A DNA stretch of 64,000 bases from positions 62,001 to 126,000 of the forward strand of contig DAIDGQ010000039.1 in the NCBI GenBank assembly GCA_027452215.1, given 5' to 3'. Below are positions 7,444 through 27,223 of this stretch, one piece after another. How positions within the stretch are numbered: the first letter of the stretch is position 1; each line of letters starts with the position of its first letter. Below the pieces are notes generated by a model, which was given only the letters and a program-made list of their open reading frames with translations, ran no database searches and was not told where the DNA came from. The translations under genes were made by a program, and so were the position numbers. The stretch comes from Granulicella sp. GTDB lineage: Bacteria > Acidobacteriota > Terriglobia > Terriglobales > Acidobacteriaceae.

Positions 7444-7558
7444 TACCCACGATAAATGGATTTAGCGACCTTTGACTTGCAACGATCACTAATTCGATAC
7501 TGCGCCGCGAGCGGTAGTTCCCTGCCGGAACGCGACCGAATCCGATTGCGCACATCCA

Positions 7559-9109
7559 ATGGCCATGGATTCACCGAATATACGTCCCAGCACGTCGCAG
7601 GCGTCGACCCTTTCGGGCAGCGATACGGTTCGATTTGGCTTTGACAATACTTACGCAAAGTTGCCGGAGCGTTTCTATGCGCGAGTGAATCCTACCCCCG
7701 TGGCAGAGGTACGGCTGGTGAAGCTGAACGTAGAGCTGGCAATGAGCCTGGGGCTCGATCCGGAGGAGCTCAAGAGCAATCGAGGCGTGGCAATTCTGGC
7801 CGGGAACCTTGTGGCCGAGGGAGCTGAACCCTTGGCGATGGCCTATGCCGGACACCAGTTTGGACACTTCGTGCCACAACTCGGCGATGGGCGTGCGAAC
7901 CTGCTGGGCGAAGTGGTGGGGCGCGACGGGAGGCGCTACGATATTCAGCTCAAGGGCTCGGGGCGCACACCGTTTTCACGCGGAGGGGATGGCCGGGCTG
8001 CATTGGGTCCAGTGCTGCGCGAGTACCTTGTTAGCGAGGCGATGGCAGCGCTGGGCGTGCCCACCGCGCGGGCGCTGGCGGCGGTAACGACCGGCGAACA
8101 CGTGCTGAGGGAGTCGGCGTTGCCGGGTGCCGTGATGACACGGGTGGCGGGCAGCCATCTGCGCGTCGGGTCGTTTCAATACTTCGCTGCCCGCGGCGAC
8201 ACAGACGGCGTGCGCGTGCTGGCCGACTACGCGATTCGTCGGCACTATCCTGAAGCGTCGCAGGCTGAGCAGCCTTACCGCGCCCTGCTGGCCGGAGTGA
8301 TGGAGCGGCAGGCGAAGCTAATCGCGCAGTGGATGCTGCTCGGGTTTATCCATGGGGTGATGAACACGGACAATATGTCCATCTCGGGCGAGACCATCGA
8401 CTACGGACCGTGCGCGTTTCTGGAGGCATACGATCCGGCCAAGGTGTACAGCTCTATCGACCACGGCGGCCGTTATGCGTATGGAAACCAGGCTCGCGCG
8501 GCGCAGTGGAACCTGGCGAGGCTGGCGGAGACCTTGCTTCCCCTTCTGGCGATTGAGGCGGGCGGCGAAGAGGCGGCGATCGCGGTGGCCAACGAGCTTC
8601 TCACGGACTTCGTGCCGCAGTTTGAGGCCGCCCGCACCGCAGGCCTGCTCCGTAAGATTGGGATACTGACGCAACGCGAGGGCGATGCTGCGCTGGCCGA
8701 AGATCTGCTGCAGCGCATGGCCGCGAACGACGCTGACTTCACCTTGACGTTCCGACGGCTGTGCGATGCCGCTGCCGGGACGGAGGGCGATGCGGGAGTG
8801 CGAGCCTTGTTTGCCGATCCTGCGGCGTACGACGGTTGGGCTGCTGGATGGCGACGGCGGTTGGAAGAGGAGACGGACGCCGGGCGGGTTCGGGCGGCTG
8901 CTATGCGGAGGGTGAATCCGGCGATTATCCCCCGGAACCATCTGGTGGAAGCCGCGCTCCAGGCAGCCACCCAGCGACAAGACTTCCGGCAGTTTGAGGA
9001 TCTGCTGGATGCGGTCTCGCGGCCCTACGACGACCGTCCGGGACTCGAACGATACAGCGTCCCTGCACTTGCCGAGGAGTGCGTGGAGCACACCTTTTGC
9101 GGGACGTAA
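7559..9109 (+). CDS. selO: SelO/YdiU family protein (protein adenylyltransferase-like)
   Basis: SelO signatures: NTYAKLPERFYARVNPTPV, YAGHQFGHFVPQLGDGRANLLGE, QLKGSGRTPFSRGGDGRAALGPVLREYL, GVMNTDNMSISGETIDYGPCAF. Confidence 0.93.
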   Translation: MAMDSPNIRPSTSQASTLSGSDTVRFGFDNTYAKLPERFYARVNPTPVAEVRLVKLNVELAMSLGLDPEELKSNRGVAILAGNLVAEGAEPLAMAYAGHQFGHFVPQLGDGRANLLGEVVGRDGRRYDIQLKGSGRTPFSRGGDGRAALGPVLREYLVSEAMAALGVPTARALAAVTTGEHVLRESALPGAVMTRVAGSHLRVGSFQYFAARGDTDGVRVLADYAIRRHYPEASQAEQPYRALLAGVMERQAKLIAQWMLLGFIHGVMNTDNMSISGETIDYGPCAFLEAYDPAKVYSSIDHGGRYAYGNQARAAQWNLARLAETLLPLLAIEAGGEEAAIAVANELLTDFVPQFEAARTAGLLRKIGILTQREGDAALAEDLLQRMAANDADFTLTFRRLCDAAAGTEGDAGVRALFADPAAYDGWAAGWRRRLEEETDAGRVRAAAMRRVNPAIIPRNHLVEAALQAATQRQDFRQFEDLLDAVSRPYDDRPGLERYSVPALAEECVEHTFCGT

Positions 9110-9127
9110 CGGGCCGAGGCGCGATGA

Positions 9128-11488
<2,361 letters not shown>

Positions 11489-11522
11489 CCGCAGGGAGAT
11501 CGTCTAATAGCTCTTCGTACGC

Positions 11523-11577
11523 GTAGCCTCGATGGGACCTCGGATCATACCGAACCCGTTCGAGGCTACATTTTTTT
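11523..11577 (+). terminator. Rho-independent terminator downstream of katG
   Basis: GTAGCCTCGA...TCGAGGCTAC perfect inverted repeat followed by ATTTTTTT. Confidence 0.85.
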
Positions 11578-11627
11578 GCGAGCTTTTGACGGTGGAGGAT
11601 TGCTTGAGTATCGAACGCCGGGCACGT

Positions 11628-12962
11628 TCAGATCGCGGGGAGGATGGTGCCGCGGCACTCGCCGAAGGTGATGGTGGGAAGGCCAGGGCGCGCGCAGTGG
11701 CCGCGGAAGATGACTTCGTCACCGTCTTCGAGGAACGTGCGAGTCTCTCCGTTGGGTAGATGGATCGGGTGCTGACCGCGTTGCGTGATCTCGAGCAGGC
11801 AGCCTTGCGAGCCGGGAATTGCTCCGGAGACTGTGCCGGTGGCTAGGATGTCTCCCTCAACGAGGTTGCAGCCGTTGCTGGTGTGGTGCGCGATCATCTG
11901 CGCAAAGGACCAATGGAGGTCCGAGAGATTGGACTTGCTGAGTGAGATGGGAGGTAGCGAGGCCTCGCGCATGCGGGTGGTAGAGAGCAGGACTTCGAGG
12001 GAGAGGTCAATAGCGGAGGAGGTCTCTGCGAGATACGGCAGAGGCGCGGGATCGTGGGGGGCGAGCGGTGTGCGGTAGGGGCGGAGAGCGTCCATCGGGA
12101 TGACCCACGGGGAGAGGCTGGTGGCAAAGCTTTTGCCGAGGAAGGGGCCGAGGGGTTGGGCCTCCCAGACCTGAATGTCGCGAGCGGACCAGTCGTTGAG
12201 CAAGGAGAGGCCGAAGAGATGGCTCTCGGCTTCGGAGATGGGGATGGGTGTGCCGAGCGGGTTGCCGGTGCCGATGATTGCGGCGACCTCGAGTTCGTAG
12301 TCTAGCTGAAGCGTGGGGGCGAAGGTTGGGGTGGGGGCCCCGGGAAGTTTGAACTGGCCGTGAGGGCGGCGGATTTCCGTGCCGCTGACGACGAGAGACG
12401 AGGCGCGGCCATGGTAGCCGATCGGGACCCACTGATAGTTAGGGAGGAGCGGCGCGTCGGGACGGAAGAGCTTGCCGATGTTGGTGGCGTGATGAATGGA
12501 GGCATAGAAGTCGGTGTAGTTTGCGACGGCGACAGGCCTGAGGAAACGGGCGCGAACCATGGGGACCATCGACGCGGCGACGATGCGGCGATGGTCGGCG
12601 GCGGCATTACCTTCGTCGCGTTGGTCAGAGGTTGGGTCGTCTTTGAGGAGATCGAATAGAAGCCTGCGAAGAGCAGACCAGGCGGGAGGCCCGCAGCGAA
12701 GGAGCGGATTGAGTTGAGGCGCGGAGCAGGCAGCGCGGATGGCCGCAGGAAGAGAGTTGAGCGCGCCAGCGTGCGCGAGTTCGTAGAGGTCGAGGATGAA
12801 ACTGCCGATGCCGACGCCGAGGTGCGCGGTGGCGTCGAGTGCGGACGTTGAGACGAACGAGCAGTACGGGAGGGATTGCAGAGGAAAGCCGAGGGTCGCG
12901 TCGTTCGCGGACTCGACCCAGCTCTTCCCTTCCCAACTATCTTCAGTCACGAGGCTCGTCAT
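11628..12962 (-). CDS. fahA: Fumarylacetoacetase
   Basis: Start at MTSLVTEDSWEGKSWVESAN; motifs DFYASIHHATNIGKLFRP, PIGYHGRASSLVVSGTEIRRP, LDYELEVAAIIG, LLNDWSARDIQ. Confidence 0.95.
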   Translation of the reverse strand: MTSLVTEDSWEGKSWVESANDATLGFPLQSLPYCSFVSTSALDATAHLGVGIGSFILDLYELAHAGALNSLPAAIRAACSAPQLNPLLRCGPPAWSALRRLLFDLLKDDPTSDQRDEGNAAADHRRIVAASMVPMVRARFLRPVAVANYTDFYASIHHATNIGKLFRPDAPLLPNYQWVPIGYHGRASSLVVSGTEIRRPHGQFKLPGAPTPTFAPTLQLDYELEVAAIIGTGNPLGTPIPISEAESHLFGLSLLNDWSARDIQVWEAQPLGPFLGKSFATSLSPWVIPMDALRPYRTPLAPHDPAPLPYLAETSSAIDLSLEVLLSTTRMREASLPPISLSKSNLSDLHWSFAQMIAHHTSNGCNLVEGDILATGTVSGAIPGSQGCLLEITQRGQHPIHLPNGETRTFLEDGDEVIFRGHCARPGLPTITFGECRGTILPAI

Positions 12963-12966
12963 GAGT

Positions 12967-14277
12967 TTAAATCGAGCTCCCGGTGTAGTGACGCTTGAGC
13001 CCCTGCCAGCACTCGTAGTACTCGTGCTGGAGAATCTTCGATTCAAGAGCGTAGCGGGTCGGGCGAACGGCCATTCGGGTCTCGAACATGAAGGCGAGAG
13101 TGTCGGAGATGCGGTGGGGCTTGAGGTCGGCGGCCGTGGCGCGCGCGTAGGTCTCTGCGTCAGGGCCATGGCCGGACATGCAGTTGTGCAGGCTGGCACC
13201 GCCGGGGAGAAAGCCCTCGGCCTTGGCGTCGTACTCGCCATAGATGAGGCCCATGAATTCGTTCATCATGTTGCGATGAAACCAGGGCGGCCGGAAGGTG
13301 TGTTCGGCCACGAGCCAACGCGGAGGAAAGATGGCGAAGTCGATGTTGGGCGTGCCTTGAACGTGCGAGGGCGCGGTGAGCACGGTGAAGATGGACGGGT
13401 CAGGATGATCGAAGCTGACGGTGTTGATGGTGTTGAAACGCGCCATGTCGTAGAGGTAGGGGGCGTAGTTTCCGTGCCACGCGATGACATCCAGCGGCGA
13501 GTGGTTGTAGTGCGAAGTCCAGAGCTTGCCAAGGAACTTGGAGACGACTTCGAAGTCTCCGTCGGTGTCTTCGAACGCTGCAACGGGCGTGAGGAAGTCG
13601 CGCGGATTCGCGAGGCCGTTGGCACCGATGGGGCCAAGGTCGGGGAGGCGAAAGGGCTGTCCGTAGTTTTCGCAGATGTAGCCGCGCGCCTGGTTGTCCA
13701 ACAGCTCGACGCGGAATTTAATGCCGCGAGGGATAACGGCGAGATGGCCGGGCCTGACTTCGAGGATGCCGCATTCGGTGGCGATGCGTAGACCGCCCTG
13801 CTGCGGTAGGATCAGCATCTCGCCATCGGCATTGTAGAAGAAGCGAGAGCTCATGGAGGCATTGGCTACATACATATGGACACCTGCGCCGTCGTGGGTG
13901 GAAGGGTCTCCGTTGCCTCCGAGGGTGACGAGGCCTTCGACGAAATCTGTGGGCACGGTTGGGAATGGAGGCGGGTTCCAGCGCATCTGATTCGGCGGCG
14001 TGGGGACTTCGTCGAAGGGGCCGCTGCGAAGAAGTGTCTTTTCCGGGAAGGGCTGGTAGGGCTCGTGGACGACGGAGGGGCGGATGCGATACATCCAGGT
14101 GCGTCGGTTGAGGCCACGCGGCGCGGCGAAGGCAGAGCCACTTACCTGCTCGGTGTAGAGGCCGAGGGGATGCTTCTGCGGAGAGTTCTGGCCGACGGGG
14201 AGAGCCCCCGAATGAGCCTCTGTGGCGAACTCGTTTCCGAATCCTGACTGATAAGCGAGCTGCGAGTGTTCCGGCAT
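12967..14277 (-). CDS. hmgA: Homogentisate 1,2-dioxygenase
   Basis: Start at [21 protein letters not shown]; motifs [60 protein letters not shown]. Its stop lies 4 bp before the fahA start. Confidence 0.96.
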
Positions 14278-14433
14278 AAACAACCTCTTCTGCGCACGGG
14301 AATTCCGGCATCGAGAGTATCGCACGGACAGCGGTCCTCTGGCGTGCGGCCGGAGGCGGTATCACATGCAGATCGCGGTCCGGTAGCGTAGCATTTCGAT
14401 TGTACGAATTTGCGGTACGACAGCCGCTGTACT

Positions 14434-15258
14434 ATGCCCCGTCTCTCCTGTACGTTCGAGCAGCTCCACCGCGATCTTCGCGAGTTCATGGCAGAGTGCA
14501 AAGCTCGCCCAGGCGGTCATGCCGTCCATGCGCTTCGCACGTCCACGCGTCGAATGGAGGCACTATTGCGCAGCGTGCTGGAAGAGAATCCTCGAAATCC
14601 GCGGCTGCGTGGCAGGGTGCACCACGCCTTGGATGCGATGAAGAAGGTTCGGCGAGGGGCGGGCAGGGTGCGCGATCTCGATGTTCAGCGAATGCTGATC
14701 GCAGAGATCGCCGCGAGACGCACCGATATGGGGTTCGTCAAGAAGCGGGGCGCTTGGGAGGAGCAATGCGAAGAATTGGAGAGCATGCTGCGCCGGTGCC
14801 GCAAACGAGAGTCAGCGAAGCTGGTGAGCCTGCTGGATGACGCAACGCCCGCGGTGGAACGCGCTCTGGATCGATTGGCGGAGGCGATCAAGACAGTGGA
14901 CCAAACCTCTACGCTCAAGGCGGATTTGCTCCCAGGTCTGCGGAGTTCTCTCGCACTTACAGATATCACAGAGGAGAGCCTGCACCGCTACCGGAAGCGA
15001 ATCAAAGCGGCGCGTTATCTCCTGGAGTTGAGAGACGCATCCAACGACGCAAAACGGATCGCGAAGCAACTGAAACTGATACTCGATTCCATTGGACGAT
15101 GGCACGATCTGCTGCTGCTCGCCGAGCAGGCCACCGCGCTCCTGGGAAAACGTGCCGTGCTGGCGCGAGCAATCCGCGTAGAGAGGGATGAGGCACTTCT
15201 GTTGGCTATCGATGCCGCAGGATCGATCAACTCACCACAGCAAGGTCAGCAGCTTTAA
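14434..15258 (+). CDS. CHAD domain protein
   Basis: Conserved His/Arg-rich helices: HAVHALRTSTRRMEALLRSV, AGRVRDLDVQRM, ESLHRYRKRIKAARYLLEL. Confidence 0.85.
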   Translation: MPRLSCTFEQLHRDLREFMAECKARPGGHAVHALRTSTRRMEALLRSVLEENPRNPRLRGRVHHALDAMKKVRRGAGRVRDLDVQRMLIAEIAARRTDMGFVKKRGAWEEQCEELESMLRRCRKRESAKLVSLLDDATPAVERALDRLAEAIKTVDQTSTLKADLLPGLRSSLALTDITEESLHRYRKRIKAARYLLELRDASNDAKRIAKQLKLILDSIGRWHDLLLLAEQATALLGKRAVLARAIRVERDEALLLAIDAAGSINSPQQGQQL

Positions 15259-15311
15259 AGCAGAGTACAGGCCTAGCAGCGAAACCCTTTTTAAACATGC
15301 GTAACAGCAGC

Positions 15312-15644
15312 CTATGGGCGAAGTGCCCATACAAGAGTTGCGCCTTCGACAAGCAGGCAGCCCTGGATCCAGATAGGGTAACGCTGCTGAAGTAGACGCA
15401 GAGATGTCTTCGGAAAACAGAGCCTAGAGAAGCCGGAGAGAGTCAGGCCCGCAAACAGCGTCCAGTAATAGACTCCGCCCCAGGCTACGCAGGGAATAGA
15501 TAACTCGAGAAGGATTGCCCCAAGGATACGAATGCCACGTTCCCGGCTCATCCAACGTTCCGTCAACTCAGGCGCGGCAAGGTGCCAAACGCCTGAAACT
15601 AATAACACACCTACTACACTTGCAAGATAGATGGTCTTAAACAT
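15312..15644 (-). CDS. Small membrane protein, function unknown
   Basis: 110 aa with about 3-4 predicted hydrophobic segments; no family recognised. Confidence 0.55.
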   Translation of the reverse strand: MFKTIYLASVVGVLLVSGVWHLAAPELTERWMSRERGIRILGAILLELSIPCVAWGGVYYWTLFAGLTLSGFSRLCFPKTSLRLLQQRYPIWIQGCLLVEGATLVWALRP

Positions 15645-16086
15645 TTAGACAGCGTACTTGATATTTTTCGGCCAAATAGGCTGTTAACTGGCGAGCTAAT
15701 AGCATCTGCAAGACATCGAAGCTCCCGTGCATTTTGTAACACTTGATCAACCAGTAACGTTCGTGAGAGGCAATTCCACTATATCTAGACTCGCCACATC
15801 GGGATCCCGCGACGAGTGGTAGCGACGTGTCAATCACCGAAAGCATTTTGACTCAGACTTGCAATTCGATAATTAATACAAATGTTTCGGAATCGAGAGG
15901 GATTTATCCGAGTTGGCTCGATAAACCTACTTACACTCACGTCGAAAAGCTAGTTTGGAGCTACACAGGTGGTGGTGTCGGTTCAGGGTTCGCCACCTAG
16001 GAACCGCACGACGGCATGAACTGCCGTATGGTCGGACCGTTGGGTTGGGATGGTGTGAAGGTGGTGTTGGGTAATTATGGTGAAAA

Positions 16087-16121
16087 GGCTCGTCCAGAAC
16101 CGCTGCGGTCCTCGACGAGCC
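16087..16121 (-). terminator. Putative terminator hairpin downstream of the cytochrome operon
   Basis: GGCTCGTC ... GACGAGCC 8-bp stem with an inner CCG/CGG stem; AAAA on + strand (U-run on -) just outside; lies 22 bp past the minus-strand gene stop. Confidence 0.5.
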
Positions 16122-16142
16122 ACATGCAAGAGCTATCGCATG

Positions 16143-17573
16143 TTACTGAAGGCCCACCGCTGCAAGTTGCTTCGGGTCCGCCTCGTCCGTAGCTAACAAG
16201 TTGTGGCATGTCGAGCAATCGTTCGTGATGCTCTTACCGGTCTTGTCGTTGTGGTTGCCATCGTGGCAACGAAAGCATCCCGGATAATCATTGTGCCCTA
16301 TGTTGTTGGGATGTGTGCCCCACGTGACCTTCATGAAGGGGAAGACGTTATTGCTGTAGATAGCGACGATAGCCTTTGCGGCCTGATCAATTTCAGCGCG
16401 TTGACCTGTCCAGACCGCGGGATATTGAGTGCGGTAGAAGGTCTCGAGTGCCGAAGGGATACGCACGGCTGCATCTTGCCGCGAACTATAGTCCGCCTTG
16501 ATGAGGGCAAGACCTTCCTTATGGACGAAGGGCAGCGAGCGACTTGGGCGTCCCTGTGCCATATCCTTATTCAAGGCCTCTTCGGGCGTGAGAAAAGAAT
16601 GAGCAGCGCGGTTGTGGCAGTCAATGCAGTTCATGAGATGCTTTTCGCCAGTGATGGGACCCTTCGTATCCGAGGACACGAACTCGGTGACGGATCCGTC
16701 GGGGTTCGTCTTCCCTACCCACGGAATGGTCTGGTGATTTGAGTCCGTGGCTACATACTCGATGTGACCCAGATGTGCACCGTGAATTCCACTCAGATTG
16801 CCAAAGGAATCACGTCCTCCGACGTGAACCATGGCCATCGTGTAAGTCATGGAGTTCTTTTCGTCGTCACCATAGGATGTCTTTACCAGCAGCTTGTCCC
16901 CGATATTTCGCTCGGCATTATGACAGCTCAGACAAGTCACCTGAGCTGACGGAATTTTATCTCCGGCCATGATCGGTTCAGGGTAACGATGAAACATCAC
17001 CATGAGAAGCTGTTTGGTTCCATTCACCTTCGCATGAACAAATCCCTGGACTCCGGGCGCTATGTGGCAGGAAGTGCATGGCACATCCGCATGCGACGAG
17101 AGGTGATAGGCAGTGAACTCAGGTGACATGACATGGCAGGACTGACCGCAGAAGGACGGCGTATCCATATAGGCGACGCCGCGATAGGACGCGGTGCCGA
17201 CGATGACAAAATTGATGAATGTTGCCACGATGACGAAGTTAACTCCGTGGCGAAACGCGGGCTCAGCAAAATCTATTGCAGGATAGATGGATGGAATCTG
17301 GCCGGCAGCACTCAGTTGACGCTGGCGAAGCCACATGCCGAGAGGAATAAGAAGCAGACCCAGAACAAAAATGCCGGGGAGCACAAGATCGAAAATAATG
17401 CCCAGGTAAGGATTGGATGAGCCGCCATGCCCAAGAAAATCCACCACCCAGAAGCCAACTAAAACAAGGGCGGATGCACTTGTGAGTGCACCGCCGATGA
17501 GGCTGATCGTGTTGTTCCCATAAAAGAGAAATGGTCTAAGCCAATTCTTCTTGAATTGTTCCAGGTCTGCCAT
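16143..17573 (-). CDS. NapC/NirT-type membrane-anchored multiheme cytochrome c (hexaheme)
   Basis: N-terminal TM helices, then FCGQSCHVM (CX3CH) plus five CXXCH motifs (CTSCH, CLSCH, CIDCH, CFRCH, CSTCH). Confidence 0.85.
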   Translation of the reverse strand: MADLEQFKKNWLRPFLFYGNNTISLIGGALTSASALVLVGFWVVDFLGHGGSSNPYLGIIFDLVLPGIFVLGLLLIPLGMWLRQRQLSAAGQIPSIYPAIDFAEPAFRHGVNFVIVATFINFVIVGTASYRGVAYMDTPSFCGQSCHVMSPEFTAYHLSSHADVPCTSCHIAPGVQGFVHAKVNGTKQLLMVMFHRYPEPIMAGDKIPSAQVTCLSCHNAERNIGDKLLVKTSYGDDEKNSMTYTMAMVHVGGRDSFGNLSGIHGAHLGHIEYVATDSNHQTIPWVGKTNPDGSVTEFVSSDTKGPITGEKHLMNCIDCHNRAAHSFLTPEEALNKDMAQGRPSRSLPFVHKEGLALIKADYSSRQDAAVRIPSALETFYRTQYPAVWTGQRAEIDQAAKAIVAIYSNNVFPFMKVTWGTHPNNIGHNDYPGCFRCHDGNHNDKTGKSITNDCSTCHNLLATDEADPKQLAAVGLQ

Positions 17574-17579
17574 GGGTTC

Positions 17580-17906
17580 CTACTTCTTCTCTAGTGTGCG
17601 GATGTAGGCGACTACGTCCTTGATCTGACTATCCGACAGCTTGCCTGCATAGGCGGGCATTTTGCCCTTACCACTTTTCGTAGCTGCAATAAGATCAGCA
17701 TCCGACTCCTTGACAATCGCCGGAGAGGTGAGCGGCATTGCCTTCATTGCCTTTCCGGCGGGAGTGGATCCCGAACCATCAGCGGCATGGCACATCTGAC
17801 ACTTAGCTTTATAGGTATCCGCTCCAGAGTTCTGAGCAGCTGCCGTTAGAGTGGAAGCTGCCATGATGGCAACCAGTGTAATTCCGAATTGAGATCTTAC
17901 TGTCAT
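17580..17906 (-). CDS. Periplasmic class I monoheme cytochrome c
   Basis: Signal peptide, KCQMCHAADGSG heme site, distal Met in GKMPAYAGKLSDSQIKDVVAYIRTL. Confidence 0.92.
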   Translation of the reverse strand: MTVRSQFGITLVAIMAASTLTAAAQNSGADTYKAKCQMCHAADGSGSTPAGKAMKAMPLTSPAIVKESDADLIAATKSGKGKMPAYAGKLSDSQIKDVVAYIRTLEKK

Positions 17907-17950
17907 TCCAATGTCTCCTTGGTTGAGCGTATTACCGATAAGCTAGCATC

Positions 17951-20599
17951 TTAGAACTCATAGTGCATGGAGAGCGTGAGGAGATTTGCATGAAAGTTCC
18001 TCGGTGCAGAAAGCCCAGATGACGGTTCGGTTAGACCGGTTGGACCAACCAAGGTGGATGAATTGCAAGGGACGACCGTTGCTGGGGTTGAGGGGGTCGG
18101 ATTGGTCGTGCTGCAGTACGGAGCGCCGGAGGGACCACCTTCGCCGTAGCCGTAGTAGTTGTACTCCGCCTTCCAGATCCATCCCGGGTGAACCGTCCAT
18201 GCAATGTTCACATAGGGCGACTGATACGCAGATTGCAGAGAACCGTTGACTGCCTGCGCGCTGTTGAAGAACTGGTTGCCGCTCACCGAACTGATGCGAT
18301 ATCCAAGGCCGCCATGTAGCGAGTTGACCGGAGTCAGCAGGAGACCGACGGATGCGTACTGCGTGGGAGCATCCATGAAGTCTGCCACTGGGCCGTACTC
18401 GTAGTAGGACGTTCCACGGACGGTTGCTCCAGGACATGCTGTACCACTGGCCGTGGCTGCTCCGGGCAGAGCGCTGGTCGCTGCTGCGTCGTAGCAAATG
18501 TTGGTCGACGTGTATACATCCGAGTAGGAGTAGTTGAGGTCGAGCGCAAAGTGCTCGTTCGGCGTGAGCACCACGCCCATGCTGGCTACGCGGCTGTGAT
18601 CGACATGATTGATGGGGCCAATCGCAACGCTCGCAGGGGTGGGAGCGCCGACACCGGTATATACGGTTGGAGTTGAGGAGGGCAGAGACTGATTCCAGTT
18701 GCCGGAGTTGTTGGTATTGTTATGCCGTTCCCTGTCATTGAAGGCAGCGGAGATAGAGGCCCAGGACTTCGGCCTGTAAAGCGTGTGGAACCTGTAGTGC
18801 TGCGTCTGCCGTGGGTCGATCGGTGTCAGCACGTTGTTGTCGTAGATCGCTTCGACCGTCCCGTTGACGTCCCAGTGCGGGGTGGGGCGAAGTGCGACAT
18901 TGAGGATTCCCCCGTTTTCAAAGATCGTCCAATTAGCATTTGCTGGATCCGTGGAGATTGCACTTCCTTGAACGATGGTGTCGGTGCTGTAACGATAGGT
19001 GAGCGAGAACGTGGCGCGAGACGATGCGTCCCAGGTTGTGGTCAGGTCATTGGTCACGATCTTTTGGCCAAAGTAGCCATACGATAGAACACCGTTGCTG
19101 ATGCCCGGGTAAGTTACTGGTCCCGACGTCAGATTGCCGGGGTAGTTGATCGTAAAGGGACCTCCGGAGGGTATGCTGTGTTTGATTCCGGCAACGTTGG
19201 TACTGCCCGGTTCGTGAACGTTTGAGAAATACACTTGATCCGCGAAGCTCAATTTGTCGAGTGCCTGCCAGGTGATGCCCAACTCGGCACCGACATCGTG
19301 TCGCCTTGCGGTGGACCATCCGGTAAATGTGTTTGTGCGCATCGCCGAGGCAGGCGCCGTCTTGGTGGCTGCTGTGTAATACAGACCAGTCCAGGTTTCG
19401 TTGTAGTTGGGGAGATTCGTATTTGCTTCCGTGTAGCGGAAGCTTCCGTTGACTGCAATGTTCCTGATGCTCGAACTCTGAAAGCGGAATATCTCGGTGG
19501 GATAGAGGCTGCGTGTCGGAAGATGGCGCGCATAGGTGGCATTTACGTCGCATGCAGGGTCGATCACGGGAAGACCAATCGTCCCGGCGGCCGCAGTGAG
19601 TGCTACTCCGGGAGTGGCAATGCTGGGACTGCAGAGGGCTGCTGTGTAAGGAGAGGTGCTGTCATATCCTCCAAGTGAGACCGGTGTACCGTTCGCTTCC
19701 TGCACATTCAATGTGCCGGGTGCGAGCGTAAAGTAGGTATTTTCCTTGTAGTGGACGACCTCCTCTTCAAAGGTGAACTTCGTCTGTTGGAGTGGCTTCC
19801 AATCGACAGCTCCAATGAAATCGTCGGTGCTATTGCGCACGTTTTCTTGCAGCAACATGCTCTCGGCAACGATCGGGTCACCGCCAGGGCTTAGCGCCGG
19901 ACCCTGGAAGATGTTCTGTGAGTAAGCCACACGGAAGGTCACTTTTGCGAGCGGAAAGATCGTTAGGTTGGTGTCCGTCATTCTTCGCACGGTATTGAAC
20001 TTGAACGGCGAATCGTTCATCTGCGGCCATGCATATGAGCCCAGAGCACCGGCGGGTCCGATCGGGATAGACTGCCCTCCCGGGATCAGGGCGTTGCCTA
20101 AGAGGTCATAGTCAAAGTACTGGCGGTCGCGGCGGAACGTTCCAGAGAACTCATACAGCTTGCCCTTGGAAAAATCCATCTTGGCGAAGTTGTTCGGGTC
20201 ACCTCCAAAGCCGGAAGTAAACGCCGTCAGGTAGTCCAGCAGGGGATGCTTGGTACCCGGGACAGCACGCATCGTATACGTCTGGCCGAGGACACGCGGT
20301 CCGGACTGGATGTTCACGAGGGTGTCGTACATATTTCTGCTGCCAAAGACTCCGGCGACATGTCCACCAAGGTCCACAGACTGATGAATCACATAGCCCT
20401 CCTGGATCACCGGCGTTGTTTGCACCGTATTCGCAGGAGCGCCGGATGCGAGGGTTTGACCCTGAAGACCCGCGACACCCGTCATCAGTAACATTATGGC
20501 GATCCCAATCCCGGCTGCGGCCCGATGGGTCGTCTTCGATGCCAGGAGTTCATTTGGTAGCCGAGAAAACCAGTCAGTCTTCTTCATCTCAAGCCTCAT
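17951..20599 (-). CDS. Large outer-membrane beta-barrel, candidate MtrB/PioB-like porin of a porin-cytochrome complex
   Basis: 882 aa; signal peptide, alternating amphipathic strands (TFRVAYSQN, SFRYTEAN, ATFSLTYRYS, FALDLNYSYSDV), C-terminal aromatic residue (LLTLSMHYEF). It is sandwiched between cytochrome genes. Confidence 0.7.
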   Translation of the reverse strand: MRLEMKKTDWFSRLPNELLASKTTHRAAAGIGIAIMLLMTGVAGLQGQTLASGAPANTVQTTPVIQEGYVIHQSVDLGGHVAGVFGSRNMYDTLVNIQSGPRVLGQTYTMRAVPGTKHPLLDYLTAFTSGFGGDPNNFAKMDFSKGKLYEFSGTFRRDRQYFDYDLLGNALIPGGQSIPIGPAGALGSYAWPQMNDSPFKFNTVRRMTDTNLTIFPLAKVTFRVAYSQNIFQGPALSPGGDPIVAESMLLQENVRNSTDDFIGAVDWKPLQQTKFTFEEEVVHYKENTYFTLAPGTLNVQEANGTPVSLGGYDSTSPYTAALCSPSIATPGVALTAAAGTIGLPVIDPACDVNATYARHLPTRSLYPTEIFRFQSSSIRNIAVNGSFRYTEANTNLPNYNETWTGLYYTAATKTAPASAMRTNTFTGWSTARRHDVGAELGITWQALDKLSFADQVYFSNVHEPGSTNVAGIKHSIPSGGPFTINYPGNLTSGPVTYPGISNGVLSYGYFGQKIVTNDLTTTWDASSRATFSLTYRYSTDTIVQGSAISTDPANANWTIFENGGILNVALRPTPHWDVNGTVEAIYDNNVLTPIDPRQTQHYRFHTLYRPKSWASISAAFNDRERHNNTNNSGNWNQSLPSSTPTVYTGVGAPTPASVAIGPINHVDHSRVASMGVVLTPNEHFALDLNYSYSDVYTSTNICYDAAATSALPGAATASGTACPGATVRGTSYYEYGPVADFMDAPTQYASVGLLLTPVNSLHGGLGYRISSVSGNQFFNSAQAVNGSLQSAYQSPYVNIAWTVHPGWIWKAEYNYYGYGEGGPSGAPYCSTTNPTPSTPATVVPCNSSTLVGPTGLTEPSSGLSAPRNFHANLLTLSMHYEF

Positions 20600-20706
20600 T
20601 TGCAGTAAAGCGTGTTAGCAGTGAGCCCATATAGGTGGGCATAACCGTTGTGCAGGAAATCGACCGAGCCGCCCGATGCTGGCAAAACGGCACAGTCTCG
20701 GAACCG

Positions 20707-21630
20707 CTACCTCTTGAAATAGGGATCAATGTTGGACCCGTGAATCATGGTGTGGCAGCTGGTGCAGGGTGTGATCGCTGACGATCCCGGGCCCTGCCCA
20801 TGGATATTGTCGGCACCCACTGGGCTATGGCACTGATTGCACAAAGCATTGATATTTGGCACATTCAGCAATCGCGCATTCTGAGAGCCATGCGGGGTGT
20901 GGCACGCGACGCAACCCTCTGCCCTGACGGGAGGATGCTCATACACGAACGGACCACGCGTCTCCGAGTGGCACTTGGTGCAGATTGCATTCTGATCTGC
21001 GGTGGCCTTCAGATTGTTCGGAAGAAACGTACCATGCGTGTCATGACAATCGCTGCATTTGACCAGGCCCTCGTTCACCCTGTGGTGAAACGGCATGTCG
21101 AATGAGGGCTTGACGTCCGTGTGACAGGTGAAGCAAAGCGTTGGCTGCTTGGCGATCAGCAGCGCCGTATCGGGAGCAGCTTTGTGCACGCTGTGGCAAC
21201 TAAGGCAGCTAACGCCCGCCCTGGCATGAGGAGAGCGAAGAAAGTTGGGATGAGTGTTCGCGTGGCAGCCCAGGCAAGTCGCATCAACTTCTTTTGGCGA
21301 TAGCTTGCTGATGCGTGTGATCTTGGTGATGTCTCCACCGGACTCCACGTGCGCTTTACCGGCGCCATGGCAACTTTCGCAGGTGGCACCGGTTCCGCCA
21401 TGTTGCAAGGCCAGTTTGGAATGAGGATTATCGACCATTCCTTTCGCCTGCGCGTCATGGCAAGTCGCGCATGCATCATTTCCCACAAAATCGGAGGGGT
21501 TTGATACGGCCTTTGTTGTCGAATGCTGAAGGGTCTGTGCGGGTAGCATGCGAGTTCCACATGTGGTCAGTACCCCGGCCATTGCTACCAGAAGGAAACG
21601 CGTCGTAATTCTGCGGGCCAAATGCCACAT
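20707..21630 (-). CDS. Decaheme c-type cytochrome, MtrA/DmsE-like
   Basis: Ten CXXCH motifs counted (CATCH, CESCH, CLGCH, CLSCH, CFTCH, CSDCH, CTKCH, CVACH, CNQCH, CTSCH) in about 307 aa with a signal peptide. Confidence 0.9.
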   Translation of the reverse strand: MWHLARRITTRFLLVAMAGVLTTCGTRMLPAQTLQHSTTKAVSNPSDFVGNDACATCHDAQAKGMVDNPHSKLALQHGGTGATCESCHGAGKAHVESGGDITKITRISKLSPKEVDATCLGCHANTHPNFLRSPHARAGVSCLSCHSVHKAAPDTALLIAKQPTLCFTCHTDVKPSFDMPFHHRVNEGLVKCSDCHDTHGTFLPNNLKATADQNAICTKCHSETRGPFVYEHPPVRAEGCVACHTPHGSQNARLLNVPNINALCNQCHSPVGADNIHGQGPGSSAITPCTSCHTMIHGSNIDPYFKR

Positions 21631-21734
21631 AAAGGAACACCTCTATCAGCGGAGTTGGTTTATATAAATGTGTTGCTTATCTATTCGCCAAACCGTCTAT
21701 GTGAGCAACGATAGGCGTGGAAAGACGGGGTATC

Positions 21735-21750
21735 TGTGACACTCATCACG
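21735..21750. promoter_or_regulatory. Candidate Crp/Fnr-family site A (TGTGAC-ACTC-ATCACG)
   Basis: Left half perfect, right half degenerate; centre about 112 bp upstream of the decaheme gene start. Confidence 0.45.
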
Positions 21751-21887
21751 AAAAGGCAAAAAACATGACAGAACGTTTAGAGAATGGACACTTGTTCAAC
21801 TATCCATATGATTCTGTGATCCTTAGGTCATTCCATGAGCGAACAACATAGACCGATAAACGTCTTATTTGAGCGATTATCGCTTCT

Positions 21888-21903
21888 TGTGACTACAGTC
21901 ACA
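21888..21903. promoter_or_regulatory. Candidate Crp/Fnr-family site B (TGTGAC-TACA-GTCACA)
   Basis: Perfect 6-4-6 palindrome in the intergenic region upstream of the cytochrome operon. Confidence 0.65.
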
Positions 21904-22091
21904 GCTTTTTGTTGAATTAGCGGTTTCAATGATGAGCGTAGTGATTCTGGATTCAACAATCCTGAACAGTGCTGCTTTGTCGGGGTCGTGGGATTCAATC
22001 TCTTTCCGGGGGAGATCCATCAGGACAGGACGATTCCCGTCTTACTTTTTCTCAGGAGCAAGGATTGAGCTCCTCCGCAACAGACAAAATG

Positions 22092-22119
22092 GCCCGGACA
22101 CCTTGAGGTCAATCCGGGC
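22092..22119 (-). terminator. Putative terminator for the 42-aa ORF
   Basis: GCCCGGA...TCCGGGC stem; on the minus strand it is followed by CATTTTG, downstream of the small ORF stop. Confidence 0.5.
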
Positions 22120-22151
22120 AGGAGCTACAAGAGTCGAAGAGAGCGTGGCTG

Positions 22152-22280
22152 TTATTTAGGAAGCTGGGCGGAGGCAATAGTCGTGGCTAAATTCGCCAGG
22201 AACAAGATCATGAACGCAACGAGGATCACCACCACACCACCGACGGTCATCCGTTCCCAAAAGTCTGCTCTCTCTCGCAT
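22152..22280 (-). CDS. 42-aa single-transmembrane small protein
   Basis: Translation MRERADFWERMTVGGVVVILVAFMILFLANLATTIASAQLPK*; SD-like AAGGAGAG just upstream on the minus strand; one strong TM helix; absent from the supplied ORF track. Confidence 0.7.
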   Translation of the reverse strand: MRERADFWERMTVGGVVVILVAFMILFLANLATTIASAQLPK

Positions 22281-22350
22281 GTTGCTCTCCTTGTTTGGTG
22301 ATGCCCGTATGACCCACTCCCCCAACTCTACAGCCGGTGCTGTAGTTTGC

Positions 22351-22366
22351 AGTGACCACGGTCACA
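22351..22366. promoter_or_regulatory. Candidate Crp/Fnr-family site C (AGTGAC-CACG-GTCACA)
   Basis: Near-perfect palindrome between the divergent 42-aa ORF and the Crp/Fnr regulator. Confidence 0.6.
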
Positions 22367-22462
22367 CCCCGGTTTTTCCGCGCGATTATGCGCCTGAATT
22401 ACGTGTTTATTCTTTGAAATTCCCATCGCCTCATCATTTTGTTTTCCAAGAGAGCAGGTCCC

Positions 22463-23176
22463 ATGCAACATCTACAGCCACACGCGACCACTTGCTGTAA
22501 GGCCTGCACCGATCGTTCGATGCGGATACTGTGCGATCTTTCCGGACAGGCGCGGATCGACTTCGAGTCGCTGGGGATGCAGATGCGGCTACCCAAGAGA
22601 TCCATCATCTTTCAGGAGGACGACAGCTGCGACGCAGCAACCATCATTTGTGAGGGACAGGTCAAGCTCTCTTGCACCTCCCGCGAAGGAAAAACGCACA
22701 TCCTGAAGATCGCGCTCCCAGGAGATCTGCTTGGGTTGGGTGCAGCGATCTCGGGAACTCGGTTCGAGGTCACGGCAGAGACCATCGAACCTGCCGTCGT
22801 GAAGAAGATTCGACGGCATGAACTGTTGGCCTTTCTCGAGAAGTATGGGCAAGCGAGTATGCTCGCAGCGAAGGCGTTGTCTGAGGAGTACAAGTCAGCA
22901 TTCTTTGATGCGCGACGCCTGGCCTTATCGGAGTCCACCGCAGGAAGGTTGGCCGGCGTGTTGCTCGAATGGGGTCGTGCTGCGGTAGGCTGTAGCGGGG
23001 CTGATATGAGCTTCACCATGGCGCTGACCCACGAAGAGCTTGCGAATCTTGCGGGGACCTCTCGCGAGACCGTCACGCGAGCGCTGGGAAAATTCCAGCG
23101 CGATGGACTCATCGAGATCCAAGGCTCAACCTTTCGAGTGCTGTCCCCCAGCGGCCTGGAAAATCTTTCTTCCTGA
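22463..23176 (+). CDS. Crp/Fnr family transcriptional regulator with N-terminal cysteine cluster
   Basis: cNMP-binding fold, C-terminal HTH with LTHEELANLAGTSRETVTRALGKFQRDGLIEI; N-terminal TTCCKACTDRSMRILCDLSG. ATG at 22439 is also possible. Confidence 0.92.
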   Translation: MQHLQPHATTCCKACTDRSMRILCDLSGQARIDFESLGMQMRLPKRSIIFQEDDSCDAATIICEGQVKLSCTSREGKTHILKIALPGDLLGLGAAISGTRFEVTAETIEPAVVKKIRRHELLAFLEKYGQASMLAAKALSEEYKSAFFDARRLALSESTAGRLAGVLLEWGRAAVGCSGADMSFTMALTHEELANLAGTSRETVTRALGKFQRDGLIEIQGSTFRVLSPSGLENLSS

Positions 23177-23298
23177 CACTGCCCCGCGCAGGCTAGCCCA
23201 AGTCGCTCGCAGATAGCGCGCCAGGCTCCGACTCGTGTGCCACCAAGTGCGGTTCGTCACGGCAATAACCTGTCATATGTTCAATAGAGCACATACCC

Positions 23299-23314
23299 TG
23301 TGACGGCTATCACT
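23299..23314. promoter_or_regulatory. Candidate Crp/Fnr-family site D (TGTGAC-GGCT-ATCACT)
   Basis: Left half perfect, right half 4/6; upstream of the UspA gene. Confidence 0.45.
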
Positions 23315-23462
23315 GATACCTGACGCTAAACCAAATTGAATCAAACACAAGAAGTAGCGTAATTTTCGAGCGTGGCCATGGGGTCGTCAGGACTAATTGG
23401 CGTTCCACTAAAACATCGCATTCTTCACGAGCTGAACGCCAAGAGAAAGGGGGAGATGAGAG

Positions 23463-24416
23463 ATGAATACGATAAAACGAAGCGTCCAATCGCCCTTCAA
23501 GAAGGTACTCCTTGCGACCGATTTCTCCGTGAGTTTGGAGGGATCATTCAAGGCGGCGCTGCGTCTTTGCCAGATGAATGAGTCGACACTCCAAATACTG
23601 CACGTTCTGAGGGCGGACGCCGTGGCTGAGGCGGCGACGGGCTTGCAACTGGGCACTGGCCTGCTTGACAGTGAAGCCCTTCTACTCCTGAATCAACTCT
23701 GCACGCGAGCCAAGGAAGCCGGTGTTGACTGCAGGTCGAGCATTGAAACAGGGGTCGCTTCCGCAAAGATTCTGGAGGCGATCGAAGCCAACGACATCGA
23801 TCTGGCGATCCTTGGAACGAGCGAGCCGCGCGGATCGAAGCGGCTGGTCTTCGGCCCCACGGCTGAGGCGGTGATGCGCATCGCTCCCTGCCCCATGATG
23901 ACGATTGGCCCTGTCGCAGCTGACCTCATCAAGAAGAATGCGTCGAAGGGCCCCGTCGTCTTTGCGACTGATTTTCATTCGCTAACCAGAGAAGCGATTC
24001 GCCTTGCTGTCTCTTATTGCGAGAGTACGGGGCTGCGGCTGCATTGCCTCCATGTTCTGCCCAGGGCCTTGCAGTCGACCGACGGGGACCAGACGCTTTC
24101 TGCGATTTTGACCTCGGCGCTGAGGCATCTCGCCGCAACCTGCGCCGTCGACGCTGAGTTGCCAGTCTGCCGAGTTACCTATGGGAGTGAGATTTCGAAT
24201 GCCATCGTGGACTATGCCCGGGAACAGCAAGCGAGCCTCATCTTCCTGGGAGTCCGCCGCTCGAGTATGGTGGCTGCCGACGAGCCTCTGCCCATCGCGT
24301 TTCGTATCATCACAGAAGCCCCCTGCCCTGTGGTGACTCTCGTCTGCGATGCTCACGCTGAGCCGGTCTGCCCGCCTGCGATGAAGCCAGACTCATCCCC
24401 CTTCCATGTGCAGTAA
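23463..24416 (+). CDS. Tandem universal stress protein (two UspA domains)
   Basis: Two UspA repeats: KKVLLATDFSVSLEGSFKAAL...DLAILGTSEPRGSKRLVFGPTAEAVMRIAPCPMMTI and GPVVFATDFHSLTREAIRLA...LIFLGVRRSS...ITEAPCPVVTL. SD-like GGGGGAGATGAGAG upstream. Confidence 0.93.
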   Translation: MNTIKRSVQSPFKKVLLATDFSVSLEGSFKAALRLCQMNESTLQILHVLRADAVAEAATGLQLGTGLLDSEALLLLNQLCTRAKEAGVDCRSSIETGVASAKILEAIEANDIDLAILGTSEPRGSKRLVFGPTAEAVMRIAPCPMMTIGPVAADLIKKNASKGPVVFATDFHSLTREAIRLAVSYCESTGLRLHCLHVLPRALQSTDGDQTLSAILTSALRHLAATCAVDAELPVCRVTYGSEISNAIVDYAREQQASLIFLGVRRSSMVAADEPLPIAFRIITEAPCPVVTLVCDAHAEPVCPPAMKPDSSPFHVQ

Positions 24417-24490
24417 GTGTCCTTCACACGCGTCCGGGCCCCCTTTAACAACTCTTCGTCATGGCAGGGATAGGATTCTTAAGCCCAATG

Positions 24491-24529
24491 CAGGGCGAGT
24501 GCCTCTCACAGGGAGAGGCACTCGCCCTG
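24491..24529. terminator. Bidirectional terminator hairpin between convergent genes
   Basis: Perfect 17-bp stem CAGGGCGAGTGCCTCTC / GAGAGGCACTCGCCCTG with 5-nt loop. Confidence 0.8.
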
Positions 24530-24547
24530 TTATGCAATCCATGCGGC

Positions 24548-25699
24548 TCACACCGCAGCCACAGCCGGTTCGTAATGGCAGAACGGATCGCTGGCCAGCG
24601 GATCACCGGTCGCGGCAAACGCTCGTGCGCGTGAGCCTCCGCAGAGAGCCCGGTATTCACAGCGCCCACATTTTCCCTTGAAGAGATTGGGATTGTGCAG
24701 CGCCTTGAACATCGGAGCATTGCGATACACGTCGAGCAACTGGTCGTGCCGAACGTTGCCCATCGCGAGAGGAAGAAAACCGGCAGGGCAGATGTCTCCC
24801 TGATTGGAGATGAACATGATGCCGTGCCCGTCGCGAATGCCGAAGCCGCGATACACAGGCGTACGCTCGATCTCGGCGGCGACCATCCCTGTCTCGCGCA
24901 TACGGCTTAGCGCAACACGGCGATAGGACGGGGCTTCGGTGGTTGCGACCGCAAACGGAGCCGTCTTCGAGAGGTCGTAGATCCAATTCATCAATTGCTC
25001 TCCCCGCTCGGTGGAGATGGGCTGAAGCACTCTGCCGCGACCCACTTCAATCAGAAAGAACAAGCTCCAGCGCATGACGGGAAACTCTCGCGTAAGCAGT
25101 TCGTAAACCGCCGGAAGATCATCCACCGTCTCCGCGGAGACCAGCGTGTTGATCTGGATTGGCACGCCCAGAGTGGCGGCAGCTTTAGCCGCGGCAATTG
25201 TCCAGTCGAAGCAGCCCTCCACGCCGCGGACAGCTTCGTGGCGTGCGGCCGTCGAGCCATCCAGGCTCAGCCCGAAGCTATCGATGCCATGCGCCTTCAG
25301 CTTCGCAAGCACCTCGATCGTCAGGTCTGCCGTGGCGCTCGGGGTGATTGAAACATTGATGCCGAGAGCGCGGGCCTCATCGATCAAGTCAAACAAATCT
25401 ACGCGCCGCAGAGGATCGCCACCGGTAAAAACCAGGTGGGGGGTAGGTTTGTCGAAGGCCGCGATCTGATGGAGAAGCTTCTTCCCTTCCTCATACGTCA
25501 GCTCGTCCGGATGAGCCGTTGAGACCGCCTCCGCGCGACAGTGACGGCAGGCCAAACCGCAGGCCTGCGTCATCTCCCAATAGACCAGCATCGGGTTACT
25601 GGAATAATCGTGGCTGGCAGAGTGATGTGGATGAGTTGAGGCGCGATGGCCCATTGCGGGAGCGGTCGTGGGAATCGTTCGTATATCCGTGGAAGACAT
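24548..25699 (-). CDS. Radical SAM/SPASM domain protein (NirJ/AhbD-like class)
   Basis: CX3CX2C motif CGLACRHC; C-terminal Cys-rich SPASM-like ICPAGFLPLAMGN...CGRCEYRALCGGSRARAFAATGDPLASDPFC; next to hemY. Confidence 0.82.
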   Translation of the reverse strand: MSSTDIRTIPTTAPAMGHRASTHPHHSASHDYSSNPMLVYWEMTQACGLACRHCRAEAVSTAHPDELTYEEGKKLLHQIAAFDKPTPHLVFTGGDPLRRVDLFDLIDEARALGINVSITPSATADLTIEVLAKLKAHGIDSFGLSLDGSTAARHEAVRGVEGCFDWTIAAAKAAATLGVPIQINTLVSAETVDDLPAVYELLTREFPVMRWSLFFLIEVGRGRVLQPISTERGEQLMNWIYDLSKTAPFAVATTEAPSYRRVALSRMRETGMVAAEIERTPVYRGFGIRDGHGIMFISNQGDICPAGFLPLAMGNVRHDQLLDVYRNAPMFKALHNPNLFKGKCGRCEYRALCGGSRARAFAATGDPLASDPFCHYEPAVAAV

Positions 25700-25709
25700 G
25701 TTGATTCTC

Positions 25710-27173
25710 CTAAGATGCGGCAGGAATAGGTATGAGAGTTGGCTGATGGCGTAGATTGTTGGCCTTGTGTTGCAGCTTGTCGCGTTGTGTAAGTTTGAGC
25801 ACGGTATTCACGCTGCTCTGAATGCAGTCCGGAATTCCCGAGCCCCGGTAGGCGGCTCCTGCGAGATACAGGCCGGGATGCGAGTTCGCACCATCGTCAA
25901 TCTCCTCGAGCAACTTACTGTGCCCGACTTCATACTGCGGATTGGAGCGGCGCCAGGAATACGCCCGTGCCAGCACTGGCGTTGCGGTGATGCCCATGAT
26001 CTCACGCAATTCGTTCCTCGCAAGTGATACCAAAGAGGCCTCATCCTGCTCGGCAAGATTCTCCGCCAACGCTCCTCCGACGAAGACGCGCAGAAGCACG
26101 CAATCGTCCGGAGCGCGATGGTTGAACTTCGTCGAAGACCAGGAGCAGGCATTGATGCGGCGGCTTTCGCTCGCAGGAACGATAAAGCCAAAGCCATTCA
26201 GAGGGCAGGTCAATTCACTGCGTCGAAAGCCCAGCGAGACGGTAGCGGTAGAGACATACCGGATGGAGCGCAGCCTCTCCGCAAGGACAGGATCGAGTTC
26301 CTGAACGATCCCCGCCGTGACATACGCCGGCGTTGTGAACACCACATTGTCCGCAAGAATTGAGGAGCCATCGTCCAAGGCGATCCGGTATTGCGGACCC
26401 TCGGATGCGATGGATCGAACGCGGCAGTTGACTCTAATACGCTGTGGATCGAGGTGGCGAACCAGGGCATCGGGAAGCTGCTGCAGTCCTCCGGAAAGTG
26501 TCGTGAACATTGATGGCTGCTTACTCGCGGCCGGCTTCCCAGCCTGCGCCTTCCTGCGCCTCATCATGCCCAGCACTAAGCTGCCGTTGGCCTGCTCCAT
26601 GTCCGCAAACATCGGGAACGTGCTGCGAAGACTTAGTCGTTCCGGATCGCCCGCGTGGATGCCCGCCATCAGGGGGCCAGCAATCTTTTCCAGAAGCTCC
26701 GACCCTAGGCGTCTGCGAACAAAGCCCGCAAGGCTTTCGTCGATACCCTTCGGCGCGCGCCGAACGAAGACCTCCAGGCCCATGCGTAGCTTCGCCGGCC
26801 AGGAGATCAGCTTGGAGCGAAGGATGGGAAGGATCATCGTCGGAGCCATCAGCATCATGCCTTCGGGCATGGGGTGCAGACGACCATTGCTATACACATA
26901 CGTGGAGGGAGTCGCCGTGGAGTTGGAGCCCATCAGCTGATCGCCAAGTCCCAGAGTGCGGCAGAGATCCAGTGTCGCACTCTTCTGCGTTAGAAACGAG
27001 TCAGGGCCGCCCTCCACAAGGAACCCATCACCCGCATCCGAAGTGATCTTGCCACCGAGACGAGGGGAGCTCTCGAGCAACAGAAAGTCCGCACACTCGC
27101 CTGCGGTTTGCTGCAGCGAGTAGGCTGCCGCAAGTCCCGAGATTCCTCCGCCAATGATTACCGTTTTCGTCAT
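25710..27173 (-). CDS. hemY: Protoporphyrinogen/coproporphyrinogen oxidase (HemY/HemG FAD type)
   Basis: N-terminal FAD-binding MTKTVIIGGGISGLAAAYSLQQ, LGGKITSDAGDGFLVEGGPDSFLTQK, MAGIHAGDPERLSLRSTFP, C-terminal GLYLAGAAYRGSGIPDCIQSS. Confidence 0.93.
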   Translation of the reverse strand: MTKTVIIGGGISGLAAAYSLQQTAGECADFLLLESSPRLGGKITSDAGDGFLVEGGPDSFLTQKSATLDLCRTLGLGDQLMGSNSTATPSTYVYSNGRLHPMPEGMMLMAPTMILPILRSKLISWPAKLRMGLEVFVRRAPKGIDESLAGFVRRRLGSELLEKIAGPLMAGIHAGDPERLSLRSTFPMFADMEQANGSLVLGMMRRRKAQAGKPAASKQPSMFTTLSGGLQQLPDALVRHLDPQRIRVNCRVRSIASEGPQYRIALDDGSSILADNVVFTTPAYVTAGIVQELDPVLAERLRSIRYVSTATVSLGFRRSELTCPLNGFGFIVPASESRRINACSWSSTKFNHRAPDDCVLLRVFVGGALAENLAEQDEASLVSLARNELREIMGITATPVLARAYSWRRSNPQYEVGHSKLLEEIDDGANSHPGLYLAGAAYRGSGIPDCIQSSVNTVLKLTQRDKLQHKANNLRHQPTLIPIPAAS

Positions 27174-27207
27174 CTCCCCAAGGGTATCGGGGGATGGGCT
27201 TCGACAC

Positions 27208-27223
27208 TGTGACTGTAGTCACA
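27208..27223. promoter_or_regulatory. Candidate Crp/Fnr-family site E (TGTGAC-TGTA-GTCACA)
   Basis: Perfect 6-4-6 palindrome with its edge 35 bp upstream of the hemY ATG. It is the exact reverse complement of site B over all 16 bp. Confidence 0.65.

Follow-up and report, generated by a model that had tools for sequence, protein, structure and literature searches.

A divergent MtrB-class barrel and an ImcH-type cytochrome in a candidate electron conduit of an acidobacterium

Acidic soils and peat are rich in Acidobacteriaceae, and iron reduction in this family is unexplained; a comparative survey saw a complete mtr/omc operon in none of the genomes that it covered. Homologs of mtrA and mtrB are known from members of the family such as S. 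bohemicum and T. gabretensis, with complete operons in no genome (PMC5900883), and decaheme cytochromes of soil Acidobacteria have earlier been proposed as iron-reduction genes (PMC3669403). The locus described here raises the question whether a single gene cluster could carry electrons between the quinone pool and the cell surface, and in which direction. It lies in a 64-kb stretch of DNA, analysed as a whole and called the window below, from an incomplete assembly (59%, 45 contigs) of a soil acidobacterium. Its closest named relatives are Granulicella MAGs, with a barrel identity of at most 88% (best segment). We find it very probable that the locus encodes a conduit of the MtrAB kind, and we regard the four-gene conduit as a candidate for the unexplained iron reduction.

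A sequence-only reading of this DNA had claimed four consecutive minus-strand genes, for a decaheme cytochrome, an outer-membrane barrel, a monoheme cytochrome c and a six-heme membrane cytochrome. All four ORFs are present and run in the same direction, separated by 107, 44 and 6 bp (Table 1). CXXCH motifs occur in just three of the window's ORFs longer than 70 aa, and all three fall in the conduit cluster, so chance clustering is excluded.

Table 1. Positions of the conduit genes and flanking features in the window
Feature	Position	Strand	Remarks
ImcH-type inner-membrane hexaheme cytochrome	16143..17573	-	476 aa; CX3CH + five CXXCH; 3 TM; PF03264
Periplasmic class I monoheme cytochrome c	17580..17906	-	108 aa; PF13442, E 3.6e-15; PDB cytochrome c6 chains
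Divergent MtrB-class outer-membrane barrel (predicted)	17951..20599	-	882 aa; model with 26 strands and without a plug; Foldseek; hhalign bridge
MtrA/DmsE-family periplasmic decaheme cytochrome	20707..21630	-	307 aa; 10 CXXCH; operon gene 1; TIGR03508; 6r2q_A match
CRP-like palindrome TGTGACACTCATCACG	21735..21750		1 mismatch; upstream of decaheme gene
Palindrome TGTGACTACAGTCACA	21888..21903		perfect; upstream of decaheme gene; matching sites in relatives
Palindrome AGTGACCACGGTCACA	22351..22366		1 mismatch; upstream of regulator gene
Divergently transcribed Crp/Fnr-family regulator	22439..23176	+	PF13545, PF00027; start codon uncertain
Palindrome TGTGACGGCTATCACT	23299..23314		1 mismatch; upstream of UspA-like gene
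Universal-stress-protein-like (UspA-like) ORF	23463..24416	+	named by eye; position conserved in closest relatives; candidate co-regulated
Radical SAM/SPASM protein, AhbD (heme b synthase) relative	24548..25699	-	TIGR04053, E 4.1e-138, above cut-off; candidate co-regulated heme-synthesis gene
Protoporphyrinogen oxidase	25710..27173	-	TIGR00562, E 4.8e-96, above cut-off; candidate co-regulated heme-synthesis gene
Palindrome TGTGACTGTAGTCACA	27208..27223		perfect; 35 bp before protoporphyrinogen oxidase start

The decaheme has a Sec-type N terminus and ten CXXCH motifs, scores above the TIGR03508 cut-off (E 1.5e-77) and aligns over its full length with the MtrA chain of the Mtr complex 6R2Q (6r2q_A; E 1.5e-35). 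Judged by these matches it is a full-length MtrA/DmsE relative, in agreement with the earlier description of a 10-heme cytochrome of MtrA/DmsE size. In a tree of 63 decahemes, two groups mirror the two classes of barrel that accompany them (support 100/100). A lipobox reading of a cysteine near the signal peptide was dropped because this cysteine is not conserved. The PDB entry for chain A of 6r2q (MtrA) carries the molecule name 'Cystathionine beta-synthase', a wrong label that seems to have arisen during deposition or parsing.

The barrel is harder to place by sequence. Its last residue is aromatic, as in outer-membrane proteins, and its translation lacks an N-terminal CXXC, as had been noted before. 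No Pfam or NCBIfam family matches it, including Pfam MtrB_PioB (PF11854), a miss that fits a divergent class; PF11854 gave zero matches in the whole recovered genome, and a profile of the barrel gave no match to PDB sequences at E 10. The barrel was modelled on its own with AlphaFold2, using 56 sequences from the window and related loci (mean pLDDT 81, pTM 0.72). The model has 26 strands (DSSP, counted by hand, residues 352-375 taken as one strand) and no plug, and in a Foldseek search of the PDB its top match is MtrB (6r2q_B; E 1.3e-13, TM 0.70 by target length), the runners-up among the best 50 matches listed being TonB receptors with TM of 0.44 or less. The comparison of profiles between the window's barrel family and acidobacterial MtrBs recognised by Pfam is weak when made directly (11%), so the case for homology rests on the fold and on a bridge through intermediate relatives: the window's family matches the barrels of deeper relatives (hhalign, 100%, E 2.1e-67), and these match the Pfam-recognised MtrBs (99.7%, E 8.8e-26, 587 columns), against 1.8% and 0.4% for TonB-type barrel controls. 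By predicted fold and bridging, then, the barrel is a divergent MtrB class, much as the sequence-only reading had supposed. The absent family matches and the TonB receptors in the fold-search list could also be taken to mean a large porin of other descent, or a receptor of TonB type, that adjoins the cytochrome by accident; we rejected this identity and consider it most improbable, given the MtrB fold match, the 26 strands without a plug, the negative TonB controls, a decaheme directly upstream of the barrel in 72 of 73 testable named loci, and locus L058, where both barrel classes are adjacent, each with its own decaheme.

If both termini of the barrel are periplasmic, as our loop assignment assumes, the odd-numbered loops, with 333 residues, are the long and extracellular ones and the even-numbered, with 42, the short ones. 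All six cysteines sit pairwise in three of these long, presumed extracellular loops (323/350, 702/722 and 829/845). Among the 56 barrel sequences, Cys 323, 702 and 722 are invariant and the others are kept in 53 (Cys 350), 47 (829) and 48 (845); mean conservation is 0.62 for the presumed extracellular loops and 0.70 for the strands. The long loops are presumed to be braced by disulfides, and we speculate that they take MtrC's place as a cap over the terminal heme.

That no extracellular decaheme neighbours the conduit was already part of the earlier reading, and indeed no further CXXCH ORF longer than 70 aa, and hence no MtrC/OmcA-type surface decaheme, is found in the 64-kb window. The MtrC domain PF22113 has no match in the recovered part of the 59%-complete genome, and no true MtrC shows up in the window's family, where PF22113 scores reach at most 40 bits across 60 genomes; this model is promiscuous among multiheme proteins at weak scores, and we read MtrC only near 175 bits. 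Deeper Acidobacteriota relatives (L057, L058, L060, L062, L065, L071) carry a large 10-heme gene beside decaheme and barrel, and the large 10-heme proteins of L060 and L062 match the MtrC domain with a score of about 175 bits; the same barrel class is paired with MtrC in deeper Acidobacteriota. The stretch of L058 that holds the divergent barrel and a Pfam-recognised MtrB (6097-16758) lies beside a 10-heme gene of MtrC size. The window's own genome has other multiheme ORFs with 5 to 9 motifs (L164, L165, L166, L161); among those listed none is MtrC-like by eye, and one resembles an ActA-type protein.

The membrane cytochrome has six heme motifs, first a CX3CH and then five CXXCH. It matches the NapC/NirT N-terminal region (PF03264, E 1.1e-7) and, among PDB sequences, the NrfH chain 2j7a_C (E 1.8e-7). 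Its structure model (pLDDT 70.5, used for helix positions only) has three long N-terminal helices and gave no meaningful match in a PDB fold search. ImcH has been defined by three TM motifs, one CX3CH and 5 to 9 CX2CH (PMC6295460), and by this published description the protein is of ImcH type. With six hemes and three TM helices it does not match the CymA/ImoA type, a tetraheme with a single TM helix. The sequence-only reading was therefore right about six hemes and a NapC/NirT relationship and wrong about the architecture; in the electron route that it drew from quinol to outer membrane, the pairing of decaheme and barrel, the quinone-linked cytochrome and the gene linkage stand, and a CymA-type protein is replaced by an ImcH-type one. 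The monoheme cytochrome c, also recognised earlier, resembles class I cytochrome c6 chains of the PDB, which may imply a high potential.

Conservation of the cluster was surveyed in 80 named loci, with a testable subset that differs per gene, and the linkage is conserved in them. Two outcomes that the earlier reading had named as counting against it, a barrel of TonB type and genes unlinked in relatives, were therefore not borne out. In addition to the decaheme upstream of the barrel, a monoheme cytochrome c gene follows downstream in 43 of the 50 loci that have 7.5 kb of downstream sequence, and ImcH lies within 7.5 kb downstream of the barrel in 40 of 50 testable loci. Most linked loci keep the window's gene order and hold either a single monoheme c gene or a pair; in Silvibacterium bohemicum (L076) and Bryocella elongata (L133) the order is exactly that of the window. 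Many of the relatives are peat and other soil MAGs, judged by record names. In a sample of 396 genomes of the phylum, the barrel family occurs in 56 and ImcH in 174 (E 1e-20). In a few loci, genes for a CbcL-type 13-heme/b561 protein and for an 11-heme/b561 pair are present as well; in L088, L092, L093, L099, L101 and L144 these and ImcH apparently form one operon. In three barrel-family genomes without ImcH (G130, G147, G217) the barrel is followed by Rieske and cytochrome b genes, an identity confirmed by Pfam for G130, and G257 has such a set as well, with ImcH on another contig. This exchange of ImcH for Rieske/cytochrome b suggests the quinone end of a respiratory route. Loci in which conduit, Rieske and cytochrome b genes follow one another in this way are L044, L045, L046 and L048, with ImcH missing or, in L048, elsewhere.

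Based on this, we lean towards a model, to which we attach somewhat better than even confidence, of an MtrAB-type conduit fed from the menaquinol pool and working towards an extracellular acceptor. Menaquinol would be oxidised by the ImcH-type quinol oxidase, and electrons would pass through the monoheme cytochrome c to the decaheme, held inside the barrel, and on to an acceptor at the cell surface. Since there is no MtrC, the terminal heme probably reaches soluble acceptors directly at the mouth of the barrel, under the long loops. Probable acceptors are complexed or dissolved Fe(III) and humic quinones, which are plentiful in mine waters and acidic peat, and as to the exact one we can only speculate. 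We hold outward flow, taken as a claim of its own, to be reasonably probable. Isolates of Acidobacterium and Acidicapsa reduce ferric iron under oxygen limitation (PMC8790237), and PmcA, a monoheme cytochrome of the Mto pathway, interacts with MtoA as well as with the NapC-type ImoA (PMC13390432). Against the outward model stand the gene set, which also fits a cluster of the Fe(II)-oxidising Mto kind, the possibly high potential of the c6-like monoheme protein, and the argument of Eichorst et al. (2018) that pathways like those of Shewanella or Geobacter are not in use in such strains.

The locus shares features with several known systems. With Shewanella MtrCAB (6R2Q) it has in common a decaheme homologous over its full length, with ten collinear hemes, and an adjacent barrel of 26 predicted strands for which MtrB is the best PDB match; unlike Shewanella, the window lacks MtrC, its barrel is below sequence-family detection, and it has ImcH in place of CymA and a monoheme c in place of CctA/FccA. 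The combination of decaheme, barrel, monoheme c and NapC-type protein without a surface decaheme is that of Sideroxydans MtoAB with MtoD/PmcA and ImoA/CymA, from which it differs in the three TM helices and six hemes of the membrane cytochrome, the divergent barrel and the Acidobacteriaceae host. Rhodopseudomonas PioABC likewise has decaheme and barrel without MtrC; unlike it, the window's cluster has no HiPIP gene and its decaheme no long N-terminal extension. The membrane cytochrome shares its three TM helices, membrane-adjacent CX3CH, five CXXCH and length of about 480 aa with Geobacter ImcH and its acidobacterial homologs. Zhong and Shi (2018) did not find mtrAB/mtoAB beside imcH (PMC6295460); here and in most relatives, imcH closes the conduit operon. 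A conduit of the Mtr kind is also known from Acidobacteriota as the MtrCAB Group 5 of Bryobacterales, which has MtrC and no nearby quinone oxidoreductase (Baker et al. 2022; PMC8805035), the reverse of the window on both counts. The mtrA/mtrB homologs of the family were already known, and we did not find the operon, the ImcH linkage or the barrel class described; our search covered literature on ImcH or extracellular electron transfer in Acidobacteriota or Granulicella, and a description of the operon may exist elsewhere.

The strongest competitor, which we nevertheless think rather unlikely, is an inward conduit like Mto or Pio, in which electrons from extracellular Fe(II) would pass to the monoheme c and then to a terminal oxidase, or through a reversed ImcH to quinone. 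It agrees with the absence of MtrC, as in MtoAB/PioAB, with a gene set that equals mtoABD-cymA (PMC10654088), with the class I, c6-like nature of the monoheme, with the Rieske/cytochrome b genes paired with the conduit in some relatives and with the peat and soil origin of many of these. It is at odds with the reports of ImcH, which to date all concern Fe(III) reducers (PMC6295460), with CbcL-type cytochromes in some relatives, which work outward in Geobacter, and with the lack of earlier reports of MtoAB/PioAB in acidophiles. We consider it improbable that the conduit serves a bidirectional or non-respiratory purpose, such as disposal of electron overflow or reductive iron acquisition at low oxygen, without supporting growth: iron reduction by isolates was indeed reported under micro-aerobic conditions (PMC8790237), MtrAB homologs run in both directions and the palindromes of Table 1 are common to heme-synthesis and stress genes, but the conserved coupling to dedicated quinol oxidases, two or three per operon in some loci, suggests energy metabolism. 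Extracellular DMSO respiration of the DmsEF kind, hinted at by the DmsE-family cut-off of TIGR03508, is about as improbable as the accidental porin weighed above, since MtrA-like proteins fall under this model too, no DMSO reductase gene was seen, either beside the conduit or in a scan of larger ORFs of the window, and the recurrent neighbours in relatives are cytochromes.

If the conduit works, searches with PF11854 or MtrC as the marker overlook many genomes with potential for extracellular electron transfer, ImcH, so far held to be unlinked to MtrAB, can be a direct operon partner, and the question of iron reduction becomes a gene-deletion test in cultured isolates. Taken further, the locus would represent a second, sequence-invisible MtrB class that is widespread in Acidobacteriota, in which disulfide-braced loops replace the surface cytochrome, ImcH, CbcL-type and Rieske/cytochrome b modules are interchangeable, and which underlies iron reduction in acidophilic Acidobacteriaceae; we offer this wider picture tentatively, as a possibility that has the odds against it.

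The conduit cluster also appears to be part of a larger regulated neighbourhood (21631-27223). A Crp/Fnr-family gene is found upstream in 40 of 66 testable relatives, and palindromes of the form TGTGA-N6-TCACA with at most one mismatch occur six times in the window (1.56 expected), five of them within 21735-27223. In relatives, the sequences upstream of the decaheme gene hold 99 such sites where mononucleotide shuffles predict 1.6, a count that is inflated by kinship. A consensus scan for promoters and terminators gave nothing above chance. The divergent Crp/Fnr gene and the CRP-like palindromes suggest co-regulation, in which the Crp/Fnr protein may bind the palindromes; this regulator probably induces the operon, perhaps at low oxygen, in response to a presumed ligand. 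The UspA-like, TIGR04053 and protoporphyrinogen oxidase genes lie near the conduit, and the palindrome shared upstream of the UspA-like gene and the oxidase suggests a small heme/redox regulon. The Crp/Fnr protein has a CXXC-containing group of cysteines near its N terminus, which could make it an iron-sulfur sensor; the spacing of these cysteines presumably differs from that in E. coli FNR.
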